From Carboxylicivirga fragile (GTDB taxonomy: Bacteria; Bacteroidota; Bacteroidia; Bacteroidales; Marinilabiliaceae), in the NCBI GenBank assembly GCA_025499625.1, contig JAFMVD010000041.1, forward strand, positions 1-55,924: a DNA stretch of 55,924 nt. The letters are read 5' to 3'. The translations under genes were made by a program, and so were the position numbers. The notes beneath the pieces were generated by a model. That model made no database searches, had not been told where the DNA came from, and saw only the letters and a program-made list of their open reading frames with translations. Positions 43,704 to 48,353 of the stretch are shown here, piece by piece. Position 1 is the stretch's first letter, and each line of letters opens with the position of its first letter.

Positions 43704-45572
43704 ATGGCAGATAAAACAAATCAACTGTTATTTAGTGATTTTCCTCCAGTATCTACGCAAGCGTGGATGGATAAAATCACAGCAGACTTGAAAGGAGCAG
43801 ATTTCGAGAAAAAGCTTGTATGGAGAACCAATGAAGGTTTCAACGTACAGCCTTTCTATCGTTCTGAAGACCTTGAATCATTAAAGTACTTAGAAAGTCA
43901 ACCTGGCGAATTTCCTTATGTAAGAGGAAATAATGCAAAAACCAATGCATGGTTCATTCGTCAAGACATCCTTGTTACCGACGTAAAAGTAGCCAATCAA
44001 AAAGCCTTAACTATCCTTACAAAAGGAATTGATAGTTTAGGCTTTGTTTTTGAAGATAAGGCACTTATTACGGAAACGAACATTGAGGCTTTATTGAAAA
44101 ACATCCTTTCTGACGATGTTGAAATCAACTTCTTTGCTGCTCACGGCAGCAAGTTATTGGCTAAAGCAGTTGTATCTACACTGAAAAAAATGAACCGTAA
44201 CCTTGCTGAGGTAAAAGGTTCAATCAACTTTGACCCAATTGGTAGCATTACTACTAAAGGCAAAGCTTGTGTATCAGTTGAAGAAGCAATGGATCGCGCT
44301 AAAGAAATGATTGGTGAAGCAAATGTTTTACCTCAGTTCAGAGCGATTACTGTTAATGCAAAACATTTCAACAACGCTGGTGCATCTATTGTACAAGAGT
44401 TAGCCTTTGGTCTATCAATGGGTAATGAGTACTTGGCTCAATTGATCGAAAGAGGTGTTTCTATTAACGATGCGGCTTCTAATCTGAAATTCAATTTTGG
44501 CATTAGTGGTAACTACTTCATGGAAATTGCTAAGCTAAGAGCAGCTCGTTTGCTTTGGTCTAAAATTGTTGAAGCATACAAACCAACAGGTGTTGAGGTA
44601 TGTAAGATGCAAATTCACAGTGAAACATCGGAATGGAACAAAACTATTTTCGATCCTAATGTGAACATGTTACGTACACAAACTGAAGCTATGTCGGCTA
44701 GTTTGGGAGGAACGCAGTCATTAACCGTTCAACCTTACGATGCTTTATATAAAGACAGTGACGAATTCTCAGAACGCATTGCTCGTAATCAGCAGTTATT
44801 GTTGAAAGAAGAGTGTCACTTCGATAAAATCGTTGATGCTTCTGCAGGATCATATTACATCGAAAACCTAACAAATAGCATCATCGAGCAAGCTTGGAGC
44901 TTATTTGTTCAGCTTGAAGATAAAGGTGGTTACATCTCTGCTTTGAAAGAAGGTTTCATTCAAGGCTTGGTGAAAGAAACAGCTGATAAACGTCGTAAAG
45001 CAGTAGCTACTCGTCGCGAAAATCTATTGGGTACTAACCAATTCCCTAACACAGGTGAAATTATCTCAAACAATATCGACTTCTCTAAATTAGAGAAAGT
45101 ATGTGTATCGTGCGAAGGTGATACTTTGGTTGAGCCAATCGAAATATTCCGTGCAGCCGATCAATTTGAAGAATTGCGTTTAGCTACTGAAAAGGCAGCA
45201 AAACGTCCTAAGGTATTCATGTTGACATATGGTAATTTAGCCATGCGTTTAGCACGTTCTCAATTCTCTGGTAACTTCTTTGGATGTGCCGGATACGAAA
45301 TCATCGATAACCTTGGTTTTAAAACCATCGAAGAAGGTGTTGAAGCAGCGAAAGCAGCTAATGCCGACATCGTAGTGCTTTGTAGTGCCGATGACGAATA
45401 CACCGAAGCCGCTCCAAAAGCATTTGAATTGTTAGGCGATACGCCATTAGTTGTTGCAGGTGCTCCTGCATGTGCTGATGAGTTAAAAGCCAAAGGCATC
45501 ACAAACTTTGTGAATGTTCGTTCAAATGTACTTGAGACTTTGAAAGGGTTTAACACGTTGTTGAATATTTAA
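43704..45572 (+). CDS. mutA: Methylmalonyl-CoA mutase small subunit MutA
   Basis: Non-catalytic beta chain of B12-dependent methylmalonyl-CoA mutase, 622 residues, near the usual size in Bacteroidota. It dimerises with MutB, which interconverts methylmalonyl-CoA and succinyl-CoA on the propionate pathway. FSDFPPVSTQAWMDKITADLKGADFEKKLVWRT is the usual N-terminus of small subunits. ISGNYFMEIAKLRAARLLWSKIV and MSASLGGTQSLTVQPYD are TIM-barrel blocks. The C-terminal B12-like domain (VFMLTYGNLAMRLARSQFSGNFF) lacks the DxHxxG cobalamin motif, as expected. Upstream partner of mutB, but a 0.44-kb cassette separates the two. Confidence 0.96.
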   Translation: MADKTNQLLFSDFPPVSTQAWMDKITADLKGADFEKKLVWRTNEGFNVQPFYRSEDLESLKYLESQPGEFPYVRGNNAKTNAWFIRQDILVTDVKVANQKALTILTKGIDSLGFVFEDKALITETNIEALLKNILSDDVEINFFAAHGSKLLAKAVVSTLKKMNRNLAEVKGSINFDPIGSITTKGKACVSVEEAMDRAKEMIGEANVLPQFRAITVNAKHFNNAGASIVQELAFGLSMGNEYLAQLIERGVSINDAASNLKFNFGISGNYFMEIAKLRAARLLWSKIVEAYKPTGVEVCKMQIHSETSEWNKTIFDPNVNMLRTQTEAMSASLGGTQSLTVQPYDALYKDSDEFSERIARNQQLLLKEECHFDKIVDASAGSYYIENLTNSIIEQAWSLFVQLEDKGGYISALKEGFIQGLVKETADKRRKAVATRRENLLGTNQFPNTGEIISNNIDFSKLEKVCVSCEGDTLVEPIEIFRAADQFEELRLATEKAAKRPKVFMLTYGNLAMRLARSQFSGNFFGCAGYEIIDNLGFKTIEEGVEAAKAANADIVVLCSADDEYTEAAPKAFELLGDTPLVVAGAPACADELKAKGITNFVNVRSNVLETLKGFNTLLNI

Positions 45573-45574
45573 AT

Positions 45575-45600
45575 AAACACAGAGGCACAAAGACGCAGAG
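45575..45600. repeat. Left 8-mer array of the GxxExxY cassette
   Basis: Directly after the mutA stop, three consecutive 8-mers ACACAGAG, GCACAAAG, ACGCAGAG run from 45577 to 45600. They are inverted relative to the array at the other side of the GxxExxY gene. Confidence 0.8.
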
Positions 45601-45604
45601 TTTT

Positions 45605-45988
45605 ATGAATGAGGAAGAATATAATAAACTATCGAGTTCGACAATTGGTGCAGCAATAGAAGTGCATAAAGAACTTGGACCTGGTTTATTAGAGGCTGTT
45701 TACGAGGAGTGTTTGCTTTCCGAACTGAAAGCGAAAGGTCTCAAAGTTGAAAGTCAAGTTAAGCTTCCTATTATTTATAAAGGTAAAGAACTGAGTAAGG
45801 TTTTTATTATTGATCTATTAGTGGAGGATAAACTAATAATTGAGCTTAAAGCGGTAGAAAACATTTTACCTGTGCACGAAGTTCAATTAGTTACCTACTT
45901 AAAACTATCGGGCAAGAAACTTGGATTGTTAATTAACTTTAACGAAAGTGTGCTTAAGCATGGTATTCGAAGAAGAATTAACAGTTAG
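45605..45988 (+). CDS. GxxExxY protein (PD-(D/E)XK nuclease-like)
   Basis: 127-residue protein of the GxxExxY family, which belongs to the PD-(D/E)XK superfamily. The family name motif is G27-LL-E30-AV-Y33 after AAIEVHKELGP. The nuclease-type active site is D70 in VFIIDLLV and E80-L-K82 in LIIELKAVENI, an ExK with the usual strand spacing. So the catalytic core is intact. It is short and single-domain. It lies 32 bases after mutA and 42 before mutB, flanked by inverted 8-mer arrays. It might act on the repeat DNA at its own ends; no activity has been shown for this gene. Relatives occur as scattered paralogs in many environmental bacteria. Confidence 0.9.
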   Translation: MNEEEYNKLSSSTIGAAIEVHKELGPGLLEAVYEECLLSELKAKGLKVESQVKLPIIYKGKELSKVFIIDLLVEDKLIIELKAVENILPVHEVQLVTYLKLSGKKLGLLINFNESVLKHGIRRRINS

Positions 45989-45992
45989 ACAA

Positions 45993-46017
45993 CTCAGCGT
46001 CTCGGCGTCTCAGCGTT
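45993..46017. repeat. Right 8-mer array of the GxxExxY cassette (inverted)
   Basis: Read on the minus strand this is ACGCTGAG, ACGCCGAG, ACGCTGAG (46016 down to 45993), three consecutive 8-mers. Compared with the left array, it matches at 17 of 24 positions, so the two form an imperfect inverted repeat around the gene. Confidence 0.8.
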
Positions 46018-46030
46018 AAAATTAATAAAC

Positions 46031-48187
46031 ATGCGACCAAAATTTAATAACATAGATTTCAAAACCAAGCCATGTGGTGTCAAAGATGCCAAAGCTTGGG
46101 AACAAAAACATGGGGTAAAGAAGGACTGGGTAACCCCAGAACAGATTCCTGTGAAACCAGTTTATAGCAAAGAAGACCTTGAGGGAATGGAGCATTTGAA
46201 TTATGCTTCGGGTTTACCTCCATACTTACGCGGCCCATACTCAGGTATGTACGCCATGCGTCCTTGGACCATTCGTCAGTATGCTGGTTTCTCTACTGCT
46301 GAAGAATCAAATGCATTCTACAAACGTAACTTGGCTTCGGGTCAGAAAGGTTTGTCTGTTGCGTTTGACTTGGCTACTCACCGTGGTTATGATTCAGATC
46401 ATAAACGTGTTGAAGGTGATGTAGGTAAAGCTGGTGTGGCTATCGATTCAATCCTTGATATGAACGTTTTGTTTGATGGTATTCCATTGGATAAAATGTC
46501 AGTATCAATGACAATGAACGGTGCTGTATTGCCAGTATTGGCATTCTATATTGTTGCCGGATTAGAGCAAGGTGCTACTTTAGAGCAGCTATCAGGTACT
46601 ATCCAAAACGATATTTTGAAAGAATTCATGGTGCGTAACACATACATCTACCCACCTAAATTCTCGATGAAAGTGATTGCTGATATTTTCGAATACACAT
46701 CACAAAAAATGCCTAAGTTCAACTCAATCTCTATCTCAGGATACCACATGCAAGAAGCAGGTGCTACCGCTGATATTGAGTTAGCATATACTTTGGCTGA
46801 TGGATTGGAATACCTACGTGCAGGTACCGAAGCAGGATTGGACATTGATGCATTTGCACCTCGTCTTTCTTTCTTCTGGGCTATTGGAATGAACCATTTC
46901 ATGGAGATTGCCAAGATGCGTGCCGGACGTATGTTATGGGCGAAGATTGTTAATAAATTCAACCCTAAAAATCCTAAGTCGCTTGCCTTACGTACGCACT
47001 CACAGACTTCAGGATGGTCATTAACTGAGCAAGATCCTTTCAACAATGTTGGACGTACTTGTGTTGAGGCCATGGCTGCTACAATCGGTGGAACTCAATC
47101 GTTACACACTAACGCATTGGATGAGGCAATTGCATTACCTACTGATTTCTCTGCACGTATTGCTCGTAATACACAGATTTATATTCAGGACGAAACGCAA
47201 ATTTGTAAAGGTGTTGACCCTTGGGCTGGTTCATACTACGTAGAGTCATTAACCAAAGAATTGGTTGACAAAGCATGGGCGCACATCGAAGAGATTGAGT
47301 CATTAGGTGGAATGGCTAAAGCCATTGAGTCAGGTATCCCAAAAATGCGTATCGAAGAAGCGGCTGCTCGTACTCAGGCTAAAATTGATAGCCAGACACA
47401 AACAATTGTGGGTACTAACAAATACCGTCTTGATAAGGAAGATCCAATCGACATCTTAGATGTGGATAACATGGAAGTTCGTCGTTCTCAGATCGAGCGT
47501 TTGGAAAAATTACGTGCTAACCGTAACGAAGCCGAAGTTCAAGCTTCATTAGAGGCGATTACAAAAGCAGTTGAAACAGGTAAGGGCAACCTTCTTGAAT
47601 TAGCTGTTGATGCTGCTCAAAAACGTGCTTCATTGGGAGAGATTTCTGATGCATGTGAGAAGATTGTTGGTAGATATAACGCAGTAATTAGATCAATCAA
47701 AGGAGTGTATAGCGCAGAAGCAGCAGACGATAAAGAGTTTGCAAAAGCAACAAACTTAGCAAAACAATTTGCTGAGAAAGAAGGACGTCAACCTCGTATC
47801 ATGATCGCTAAAATGGGTCAGGATGGACACGATCGTGGAGCTAAAGTAGTAGCAACAGGTTACGCTGATATCGGTTTTGATGTGGATATGGGACCATTGT
47901 TCCAAACTCCTGCAGAAGCGGCTAAGCAAGCTGTTGAAAACGATGTTCACGTTGTGGGTGTTTCTTCACTAGCTGCCGGTCACAAGACCTTGGTTCCTCA
48001 AATTATCGCTGAGCTTAAGGCTCTAGGTCGTGAGGACATTATGGTGATTTGTGGTGGTGTTATTCCAGCTCAGGATTATGATTTCCTTTACAAGGCTGGT
48101 GCTGTGGCTATCTTTGGCCCTGGTACTTCAGTTGCTAAAGCAGGATCAGATATTCTTAACTTGTTAATTGAGCAAGCTGCTGAGTAG
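46031..48187 (+). CDS. mutB: Methylmalonyl-CoA mutase large subunit MutB
   Basis: Catalytic alpha chain, 718 residues, of the adenosylcobalamin-dependent mutase that interconverts methylmalonyl-CoA and succinyl-CoA. The N-terminal TIM barrel has [42 protein letters not shown], and the substrate-binding [42 protein letters not shown] is the barrel strand near the active site. The C-terminal B12 domain contains [14 protein letters not shown] with the cobalt ligand H600 in DxHxxG, followed by [15 protein letters not shown] and [12 protein letters not shown]. Second gene of the mut operon. Some such enzymes are named ScpA. Confidence 0.97.
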
Positions 48188-48195
48188 TTAAAAAA

Positions 48196-48220
48196 GTGCA
48201 CGGTGCATTGTGCACAGTGC
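48196..48220. repeat. Tandem 7-mers GTGCNNN after mutB
   Basis: Four consecutive 7-mers, GTGCACG, GTGCATT, GTGCACA and a partial GTGC, start 8 bases after the mutB stop. It resembles in style the 7-mer array between larE and larB and the 8-mer arrays around the GxxExxY gene. Confidence 0.65.
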
Positions 48221-48265: not shown

Positions 48266-48353
48266 GTTTTCACACGGAGATGTAGAGTATTATTTTGTAA
48301 AACCTAAAAAACCATTATCTTAGTAATAAGATATAAACCAAGCCTATACAAAC

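Follow-up and report, generated by a model that had tools for sequence, protein, structure and literature searches.

In the 55,924-nucleotide stretch of Carboxylicivirga fragile DNA analysed here (the window), a gene for a small protein of the GxxExxY type separates the host genes mutA and mutB and is bracketed by inverted triplets of tandem 8-mers (Table 1). This arrangement had been proposed in a first-pass annotation made from the sequence, and we confirm it for the 127-residue gene and for both triplets, which agree, as claimed there, at 17 of 24 positions when the right one is inverted. The coordinates of mutA and mutB likewise show that both genes are left intact by the block. Arrays do stand at both ends of the 443-base block described at first pass, which had been drawn too wide by two bases at its left edge and by one base at its right edge. 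They begin 4 bases past the mutA stop and finish 14 bases ahead of the mutB ATG.

Table 1. Features of the mutA-mutB junction and its surroundings in the window (mutA and mutB are named as in the first-pass annotation)
Feature	Position	Strand	Basis
mutA, upstream host gene	43704..45572	+	ORF list
Left arm, three tandem 8-mers ACACAGAG GCACAAAG ACGCAGAG	45577..45600	+	sequence, word search
GxxExxY protein gene, 127 aa, predicted PD-(D/E)XK (Cas4/RecB-like) nuclease fold	45605..45988	+	profiles, model, alignment
Right arm, three tandem 8-mers, inverted, ACGCTGAG ACGCCGAG ACGCTGAG on the - strand	45993..46016	-	sequence, word search
mutB, downstream host gene	46031..48187	+	ORF list
Solo degenerate 8-mer pair ACACGGAGATGTAGAG, without adjoining GxxExxY gene	48272..48287	+	word search

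A two-unit search with ACRCNGAGACRCNGAG, allowing at most two mismatches, returned five matches in the 55.9-kb window, four of them at the nuclease-gene block. Since shuffled versions of the window are expected to give 0.20 matches (maximum 2), the arrays around the GxxExxY gene are not due to chance. Bases 45578-45600 of the left arm fit the pattern CRCNRAGNCRCNRAGNCRCNRAG in an array search; the right array is called as period 8 by Tandem Repeats Finder, and the left array lies under the threshold of 35. Just past mutB, at 48196-48220, the window also holds a period-7 array (GTGCACG GTGCATT GTGCACA GTGC) of the kind that flanks the four-helix genes described below (compare the flanks of L159), with no such gene adjoining. 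The string ACACGGAGATGTAGAG also closes a solo array elsewhere in the genome (L007 1509-1524).

The window protein falls within the GxxExxY family, scoring 152.9 bits against TIGR04256 (cut-off 35) and 150.3 bits against PF13366 (PDDEXK_3; cut-off 22), the sole match in a Pfam search at E values up to 1. The motif and the PD-(D/E)XK-type core noted at first pass are both intact: among 154 aligned proteins G27 and Y33 are invariant (154/154) and E30 is present in 153, D70, E80 and K82 are each retained in 153, and Q94 and Y98 in 151 and 150 respectively. The AlphaFold2 model (pLDDT 96.6) finds as its top Foldseek match SSO0001 (4ic1; E 1.1e-3, TM ~0.5), which we take to be a Cas4 protein, and the next matches are lambda-exonuclease-type enzymes; these similarities are modest but consistent. 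By its modelled core fold and its D..(D/E)xK residues the protein is predicted to belong to the PD-(D/E)XK nuclease superfamily, and the QxxxY part of its E..D..ExK..QxxxY pattern is presumably that of the Cas4, lambda exonuclease and RecB-type nucleases. A search of solved structures by sequence with the window protein (E up to 1) and a search of phage records for GxxExxY (E 1e-5) gave no match. GxxExxY genes are under purifying selection in the tested pairs, with dN/dS of 0.06-0.095 in five of the nine pairs tried (two were saturated and two held a stop) and of 0.061 between the G000 and G011 copies at mutA-mutB. In one passage of a published account, the name GxxExxY is given next to a CRISPR-type reverse transcriptase, at a position that another program annotates as cas4 (PMC8934634).

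The genome from which the window comes contains three full GxxExxY copies and one fragment, and two sorts of array, built of 8-type (CRCNRAG) or 10-type (CRCNRATT) words. L002 has 10-type words (CACTAATTNN, TTCGTG...) on both sides and is 10-type by motif count; L003 has such words downstream only, and its motif count is a tie. Since neither carries 8-mers, the tie to the 8-mer ACRCNGAG as such, which the first-pass annotation had proposed to look for at each GxxExxY copy, holds for the window copy and not for all. From about position 2040 of L003, the 3' portion of the gene is present again as a second, fragmentary copy, together with the 10-type words downstream of it. Nine triple 8-type arrays are present in this genome, and only the window's two flank a GxxExxY gene. 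Positions 1000-1600 of L008 hold several solo arrays of 8-type and 10-type words, one of which is an 8-mer hairpin without a GxxExxY gene.

To see the gene in its wider setting, 40 genomes (own included) were searched, 30 of which have PF13366 matches. The search yielded 100 loci with a tblastn match, of which 11 were dropped (repeats of a place, the 3' fragment L004 and a truncated copy in G015), leaving 89 non-redundant loci, 87 of them with both flanks; L039, L098 and L099, which have no tblastn match, are uncounted, and seven weak PF13366 matches lie outside the locus set. When the left 150 bases were compared with the reverse complement of the right 150, an inverted repeat scoring at least 18 was found in 44 of the 87 loci, with 43 falling below, compared to 6 of 252 control genes from twenty random 20-kb stretches, 3.9% of mispaired arms and none of the outer flanks, which were readable in 30 of the 87 loci. 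Within an element, the two arms tend to share their word. By word, 30 of the 87 loci are 8-type, 42 are 10-type, three are tied and 12 have neither; both words occur in nine of the 75 loci with any word, mostly through one stray match, and six of the 12 loci without either word still have arms scoring 19-50, built of other words. The 8-mer as a universal end is thus ruled out, by the 42 10-type loci of 87 as well as by L002 and L003. Copies without flanking 8-mers, which the first-pass annotation had counted against its own proposal, therefore do exist in the literal sense, but most have sister arrays instead.

Word class follows the protein. On a tree of 76 of the 89 proteins (no stop, 105-149 aa), it changes four times over 61 labelled rows, compared to 19.1 on average, and never fewer than 13, in 2000 shuffles. 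An arm also matches its own partner better than the arm of the nearest paralog (<75% identity) in 57 of the 87 loci (worse in 24, tied in six). Some copies seemingly lie in surface-polysaccharide clusters (L026, L027, L033, L047, L054, L060, L074-L076, L080, L085-L087), a call made by eye in which some downstream frames resemble ABC-transporter or nucleotide-sugar genes. Among broken copies, the frameshifted L092 and L097 at mutA-mutB have kept their word arrays, and L091 and L095, with internal stops, have no clear arms.

Eight proteins from the 8-type clade served as queries in a scan that found at least 583 related stretches, of which the best 80 were taken; flanks were long enough in 78 for the inverted-repeat test and in 79 for the word test. 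Record titles among these best 80 of at least 583 name Bacteroidetes, Proteobacteria, Acidobacteria, Verrucomicrobia, Planctomycetes, Chloroflexi, Cyanobacteria, Cloacimonadota, Methanosarcinales, Methanothrix and others. Two of the records are archaeal; as most of the distant records are metagenome-assembled, a stray contig is possible. Within the same best 80, inverted flanks scoring at least 18 occur in 40 of 78 loci (38 below), compared to 0/67 outer flanks and 7.0% of mispaired arms, and all 79 loci testable for words carry the 8-type words predicted from the protein clade. They hold 458 motifs, compared to 34.6 in shuffles, where 25.4 of 79 would class as 8-type; the outer flanks hold 57 motifs in all, with 31 of 67 classed 8-type. 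The words point inward (upstream 161 forward and 45 reverse, downstream 193 inward and 59 outward), and in 57 of 78 loci an arm fits its own partner better than the nearest paralog's arm (<75% identity; worse in 14, tied in seven). Word class and protein clade are linked.

The same layout is found around a second, unrelated protein, a four-helix protein from the family that includes S23, the protein of 23S rRNA intervening sequences. Four-helix genes have inverted repeats scoring at least 18 in 16 of 38 loci in the relatives (mispaired arms 4.7%, outer flanks 0/35) and in 22 of 30 elsewhere (2.2% and 0/24), and their own arm beats that of the nearest paralog (<75% identity) in 25 of 38 (worse in 12) and 25 of 30 (worse in four) respectively. 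Their arms have a period of 7 nt with harmonics at 14 and 21 (z 21-22 at 7), which is the best period in 19/23 and 15/24 loci; the period of GxxExxY arms is 8-10 nt, without clear harmonics. Four-helix matches were found in 28 plasmid records, and the seven examined are all cyanobacterial, with genes lying for example between nrdB and nrdA or cas6 and cas4 and heptamers such as GGGAGTA. In excerpts of earlier reports, S23-type genes occur in cas loci (PMC3936711) and the four-helix family is said to resemble the Avd protein of diversity-generating retroelements (PMC10053308). Gene plus word arrays is, then, a recurrent unit; it is seen in records of many phyla and with either of two unrelated proteins.

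Both proteins are found at the junction where the window copy lies. A mutA match was present in 22 of 23 genomes searched, and across 22 genomes (own included) the mutA-mutB junction holds GxxExxY in six (open in G000, G011 and G021, frameshifted in G019 and G023, truncated in G015). Twelve others have the unrelated four-helix gene (TIGR02436), two have inverted words and no gene (G002 and G017, in the latter of which solo 8-type arms replace the gene), one has a 7-bp gap (G020) and one (G013) a contig end with a partial four-helix gene. The first-pass annotation had proposed to search this junction in relatives for an empty site; a nucleotide-exact empty site for a GxxExxY element was found in none of the compared genomes. 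Further copies preceding mutB (L181, L182, L184, L185 and L189) are in records that we take to be Bacteroidales from their titles and taxonomy.

The ten mutA-mutB GxxExxY copies, from several Bacteroidales records, group in a FastTree tree of 167 of the 169 proteins (L037 and L062 left out), with three changes compared to a null mean of 9.8 and minimum of 8; the tree is poorly resolved, with 64 of 164 inner forks unresolved and four of the ten copies in that part. This grouping leads us to reject a recent insertion as the likeliest history of the junction; by it, the window copy seems to have resided at mutA-mutB for a long time and is still intact. By the same measure, copies before a trpG/pabA-like gene (L188, L194, L202 and L235; the label is a motif read from the translation of the downstream gene) show four changes compared to a null of 3.99, and so look like separate arrivals. 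The mutA-mutB four-helix copies form one clade (one change; tree of 36 proteins from 161 matches), and with a four-helix query from G005 the mutA-mutB copy was the best match in every one of the 12 genomes where it is whole; in G013, where it is cut, it ranks first in identity to the query but not in score. In-place rewriting of both arms was considered for these copies and not adopted. The copies with AGTAC words (G008, G010 and G012) are ahead of other copies by only 1, 4 and 2 percent identity, so that replacement by a related element may have occurred.

The clearest footprint of movement is a pair of copies in genome G035, L089 and L090, which are 90.9% identical over 481 bp; identity spans the arms and the gene and fades within about 10 bases of the arm ends, and further fragments and single arms of this element are present in the same genome. 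It is the sole clear duplicate pair. With the enrichment of inverted repeats (44/87 and 40/78) and the agreement of word class with clade, it bears out the first-pass view that gene and repeats make up one unit, and such footprints suggest that the unit is mobile. No target-site duplication was obvious by eye at L089/L090 or at the four-helix nrd site. The nrdB-nrdA region of Calothrix is without the block present in Nostoc, at an identity of 85% at which the edge is not fixable to the base. The Dolichospermum cas6-cas4 region, 98.7% like that of Anabaena sp. 90 over the shared 69%, was tried as an empty site and rejected, as it holds a different inverted-repeat block. The cas6-cas4 intervals of two closely related cyanobacterial plasmid regions (L299 1019-1265 and L294 819-1596) differ in content: one contains a four-helix gene and heptamers, the other an inverted-repeat block (GTAGGTTGGGTT...).

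Most 8-type arrays stand alone. In eight genomes 106 of 116 8-type arrays have no GxxExxY gene nearby; that repeats might lie mostly far from such genes had been named at first pass as a sign against the link, and this is literally so, but the 10 of 116 that are within 500 bp of one compare to 0.24 by random placement, an excess of about 40-fold. Across 40 genomes the number of arrays rises with the cognate gene class (rho 0.51 for 8-type and 0.66 for 10-type, the latter inflated by gene-borne arms, as 25 of 58 entered arrays are near a gene, 14 in one genome), with cross-class values of 0.36 and 0.32; five of the 40 10-type arrays of G022 entered the array-distance count. A strict rule that arrays need a matching gene is rejected by G014 and G033, which have 102 and 60 triple 8-type arrays and no gene classed 8-type (the G014 fragment L098 was not classed by word type). 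For the 4.4-Mb genome of G014, 102 such arrays are a REP-like load without an obvious owner.

We favour, with a little more confidence than doubt, the interpretation that arm, gene and inverted arm form a minimal mobile (selfish) element whose predicted Cas4-like nuclease acts on its own arrays. We infer the following scheme of array recognition, cleavage and copying for the GxxExxY element. The arms are short tandem arrays with a word period that would suit the protein (8-10 nt for GxxExxY), and the protein, a putative stripped-down Cas4/RecB-like nuclease, would most likely recognise its own word arrays or process the DNA there. A further copy would be made when host enzymes repair or copy an end that the nuclease has generated at an array, often into gaps between operon genes, and loss of the gene would leave solo arrays or hairpins behind. 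We know of no strand-transfer activity in a PD-(D/E)XK nuclease, and a partner would therefore be needed. Against this interpretation we count the approximately half of loci that score below 18, the modest similarity to Cas4, the apparent age of the window copy and the arrays without an owner in G014 and G033. Also counted against it are the single clear duplicate pair, the failure to find a nucleotide-exact empty site or an obvious target-site duplication, the inflated 10-type correlation and the lack of any excess of co-directional placement outside the relatives.

Alternatively, the unit could be an RNA-level element like the 23S rRNA intervening sequences, with arms that pair in the transcript and are kept for pairing, and an RNase (e.g. 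RNase III) or the protein itself excising the gene or splitting the mRNA. GxxExxY genes of the relatives are co-directional with both neighbours in 67 of 76 cases, compared to 143 of 241 control genes, as are 33/35 and 20/25 of the four-helix copies, and such placement in the relatives is compatible with dependence on host transcription as well as with an RNA step. The window block also folds better than its shuffles (z -4.5), a score to which the coding sequence may contribute, and the sister four-helix genes belong to a family, S23, known from rRNA intervening sequences, for which RNase III excision is described (PMC4990558). In other phyla, however, 44 of 72 GxxExxY genes are co-directional, equal to the control (143/241, from the relatives only), so that co-directional placement fails as a general rule, and there are copies opposite to both neighbours (3/76 in the relatives, 8/72 in other phyla, and the four-helix gene L291 in an nrd operon). 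Over 99 paired arms G-U mismatches are not in excess of A-C mismatches (194 and 233, p 0.066 in the direction opposite to RNA pairing), and we reject RNA-stem selection on the arms. As the arms do not look like selected RNA stems, we favour a nuclease that would act on its own arrays as DNA, and we consider an RNA-level element unlikely.

It is about equally improbable, in our view, that the arrays are spread or homogenised by other machinery (slippage, host repair, or a transposase or reverse transcriptase in trans), the GxxExxY genes being passengers or accessory genes caught between two arrays. The 106 of 116 8-type arrays without a gene nearby, the array-rich G014 and G033 with no gene classed 8-type, and the sharing of the layout by unrelated four-helix genes would all fit such passengers. 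Against this reading, word class tracks protein clade, a prediction from clade held in 79/79 loci, and 8-type arrays lie near the genes about 40 times more often than at random (10 compared to 0.24). Least probable is a domesticated host cassette in which the nuclease-like protein and hairpins serve the mutA-mutB operon (e.g. in transcript balance) and mobility is only ancestral: the copies there do group across Bacteroidales records, are open in G000, G011 and G021 and show purifying selection between the first two (dN/dS 0.061), but among the 22 genomes the junction has a four-helix gene instead in 12, a frameshifted copy in two, a truncated one in one, words only in two and nothing in one, replacements that argue against a needed function.

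The selfish-element interpretation can be extended, more tentatively and with rather less than an even chance of being right, to both proteins. The GxxExxY nuclease and the unrelated S23/Avd-like four-helix protein would then each head a large unrecognised class of word-ended mini-elements, in which the protein fixes the word period (7 nt for one, 8-10 nt for the other), the word is free and the arms are rewritten together; orphan heptamer and octamer arrays in bacteria and archaea, and 23S rRNA intervening sequences, would be their footprints. The rRNA intervening sequences, the origin of which PMC4990558 still calls unclear 25 years after their discovery, would then become one special case. 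The observations tie GxxExxY, a very common family whose role has yet to be explained, to a definite DNA unit, and they suggest an owner for short tandem arrays hitherto described as binding sites, G-quadruplex repeats or fingerprint repeats. If each protein acts on its own word, these would be among the smallest mobile elements; their ends vary between copies but agree within each copy, which would call for a copying mechanism yet to be described. In the open-access literature we found no account of GxxExxY with repeats, or of four-helix/S23 genes with heptamers and inverted ends outside rRNA.

Short tandem words, often in opposed pairs and mostly intergenic, have been described before. In the portions of the respective reports used here, Geobacter class 2 sites occur in opposed pairs and class 3 consists of heptamers (PMC2700814), GGGAATC heptamers of Xanthomonas form 70 and 75 convergent pairs in two genomes (PMC4692102), heptamers are reported from Nostoc (PMC4692102), and TAACTGA arrays from Beggiatoaceae (PMC4679880). 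The Geobacter class 2 word, as given in that portion of PMC2700814, is readable as the reverse complement of the 8-type word CACGGAGA. Those portions name no owner gene family for the arrays, whereas here two families carry arrays at their ends; the published arrays may be the same thing as those of the GxxExxY and four-helix genes.

With Cas4, lambda exonuclease and RecB-type nucleases (4ic1, 3syy, 1avq) the GxxExxY protein shares its predicted fold and the conserved E..D..ExK..QxxxY pattern, but it has only about 125 residues and no extra domain, and its gene is bracketed by arrays. The recurrent use of one junction fits a free-standing homing endonuclease and does not demonstrate one, and no DDE transposase was found by Pfam in the block gene. 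The closest parallels in layout are two. REP/RAYT systems (REP-rayt-REP, BIMEs), as far as the excerpt of PMC2817692 describes them, likewise have a gene between inverted repeats, co-evolution of repeat and protein and many gene-free repeats; a gene bracketed by co-evolving inverted repeats is what we find for the GxxExxY class, with about half of single loci reaching 18. They differ in that the protein of that excerpt (PMC2817692) is an IS200/IS605-type tyrosine transposase, which the Pfam search of the block gene (E up to 1; PF13366 only) did not find, in place of a Cas4/RecB-like PD-(D/E)XK protein, and in that the repeat is a palindrome with a GT(A/G)G head, absent from the sequence of the window arms, in place of variable tandem word arrays. 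The GxxExxY unit is also present in records of many phyla and two archaea.

The 23S rRNA intervening sequence, one of which has a 28-bp inverted stem, tandem heptamers and excision by RNase III in the excerpt of PMC4990558, is alike in being a block of ~430-450 bp with one small ORF, inverted ends and tandem words adjoining the ORF, and four-helix genes of the same layout share the mutA-mutB junction. Unlike it, the GxxExxY block lies between protein genes and not inside rRNA, its words are of 8-10 nt and not 7, and its arms show no sign of selection for RNA pairing in their mismatch types. Its protein is unrelated to the S23/IVP four-helix family, the window gene matching PF13366 and the sister blocks in 12 of 22 genomes encoding the four-helix protein. 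The GxxExxY unit is REP/RAYT-like and intervening-sequence-like in layout, and a member of neither.
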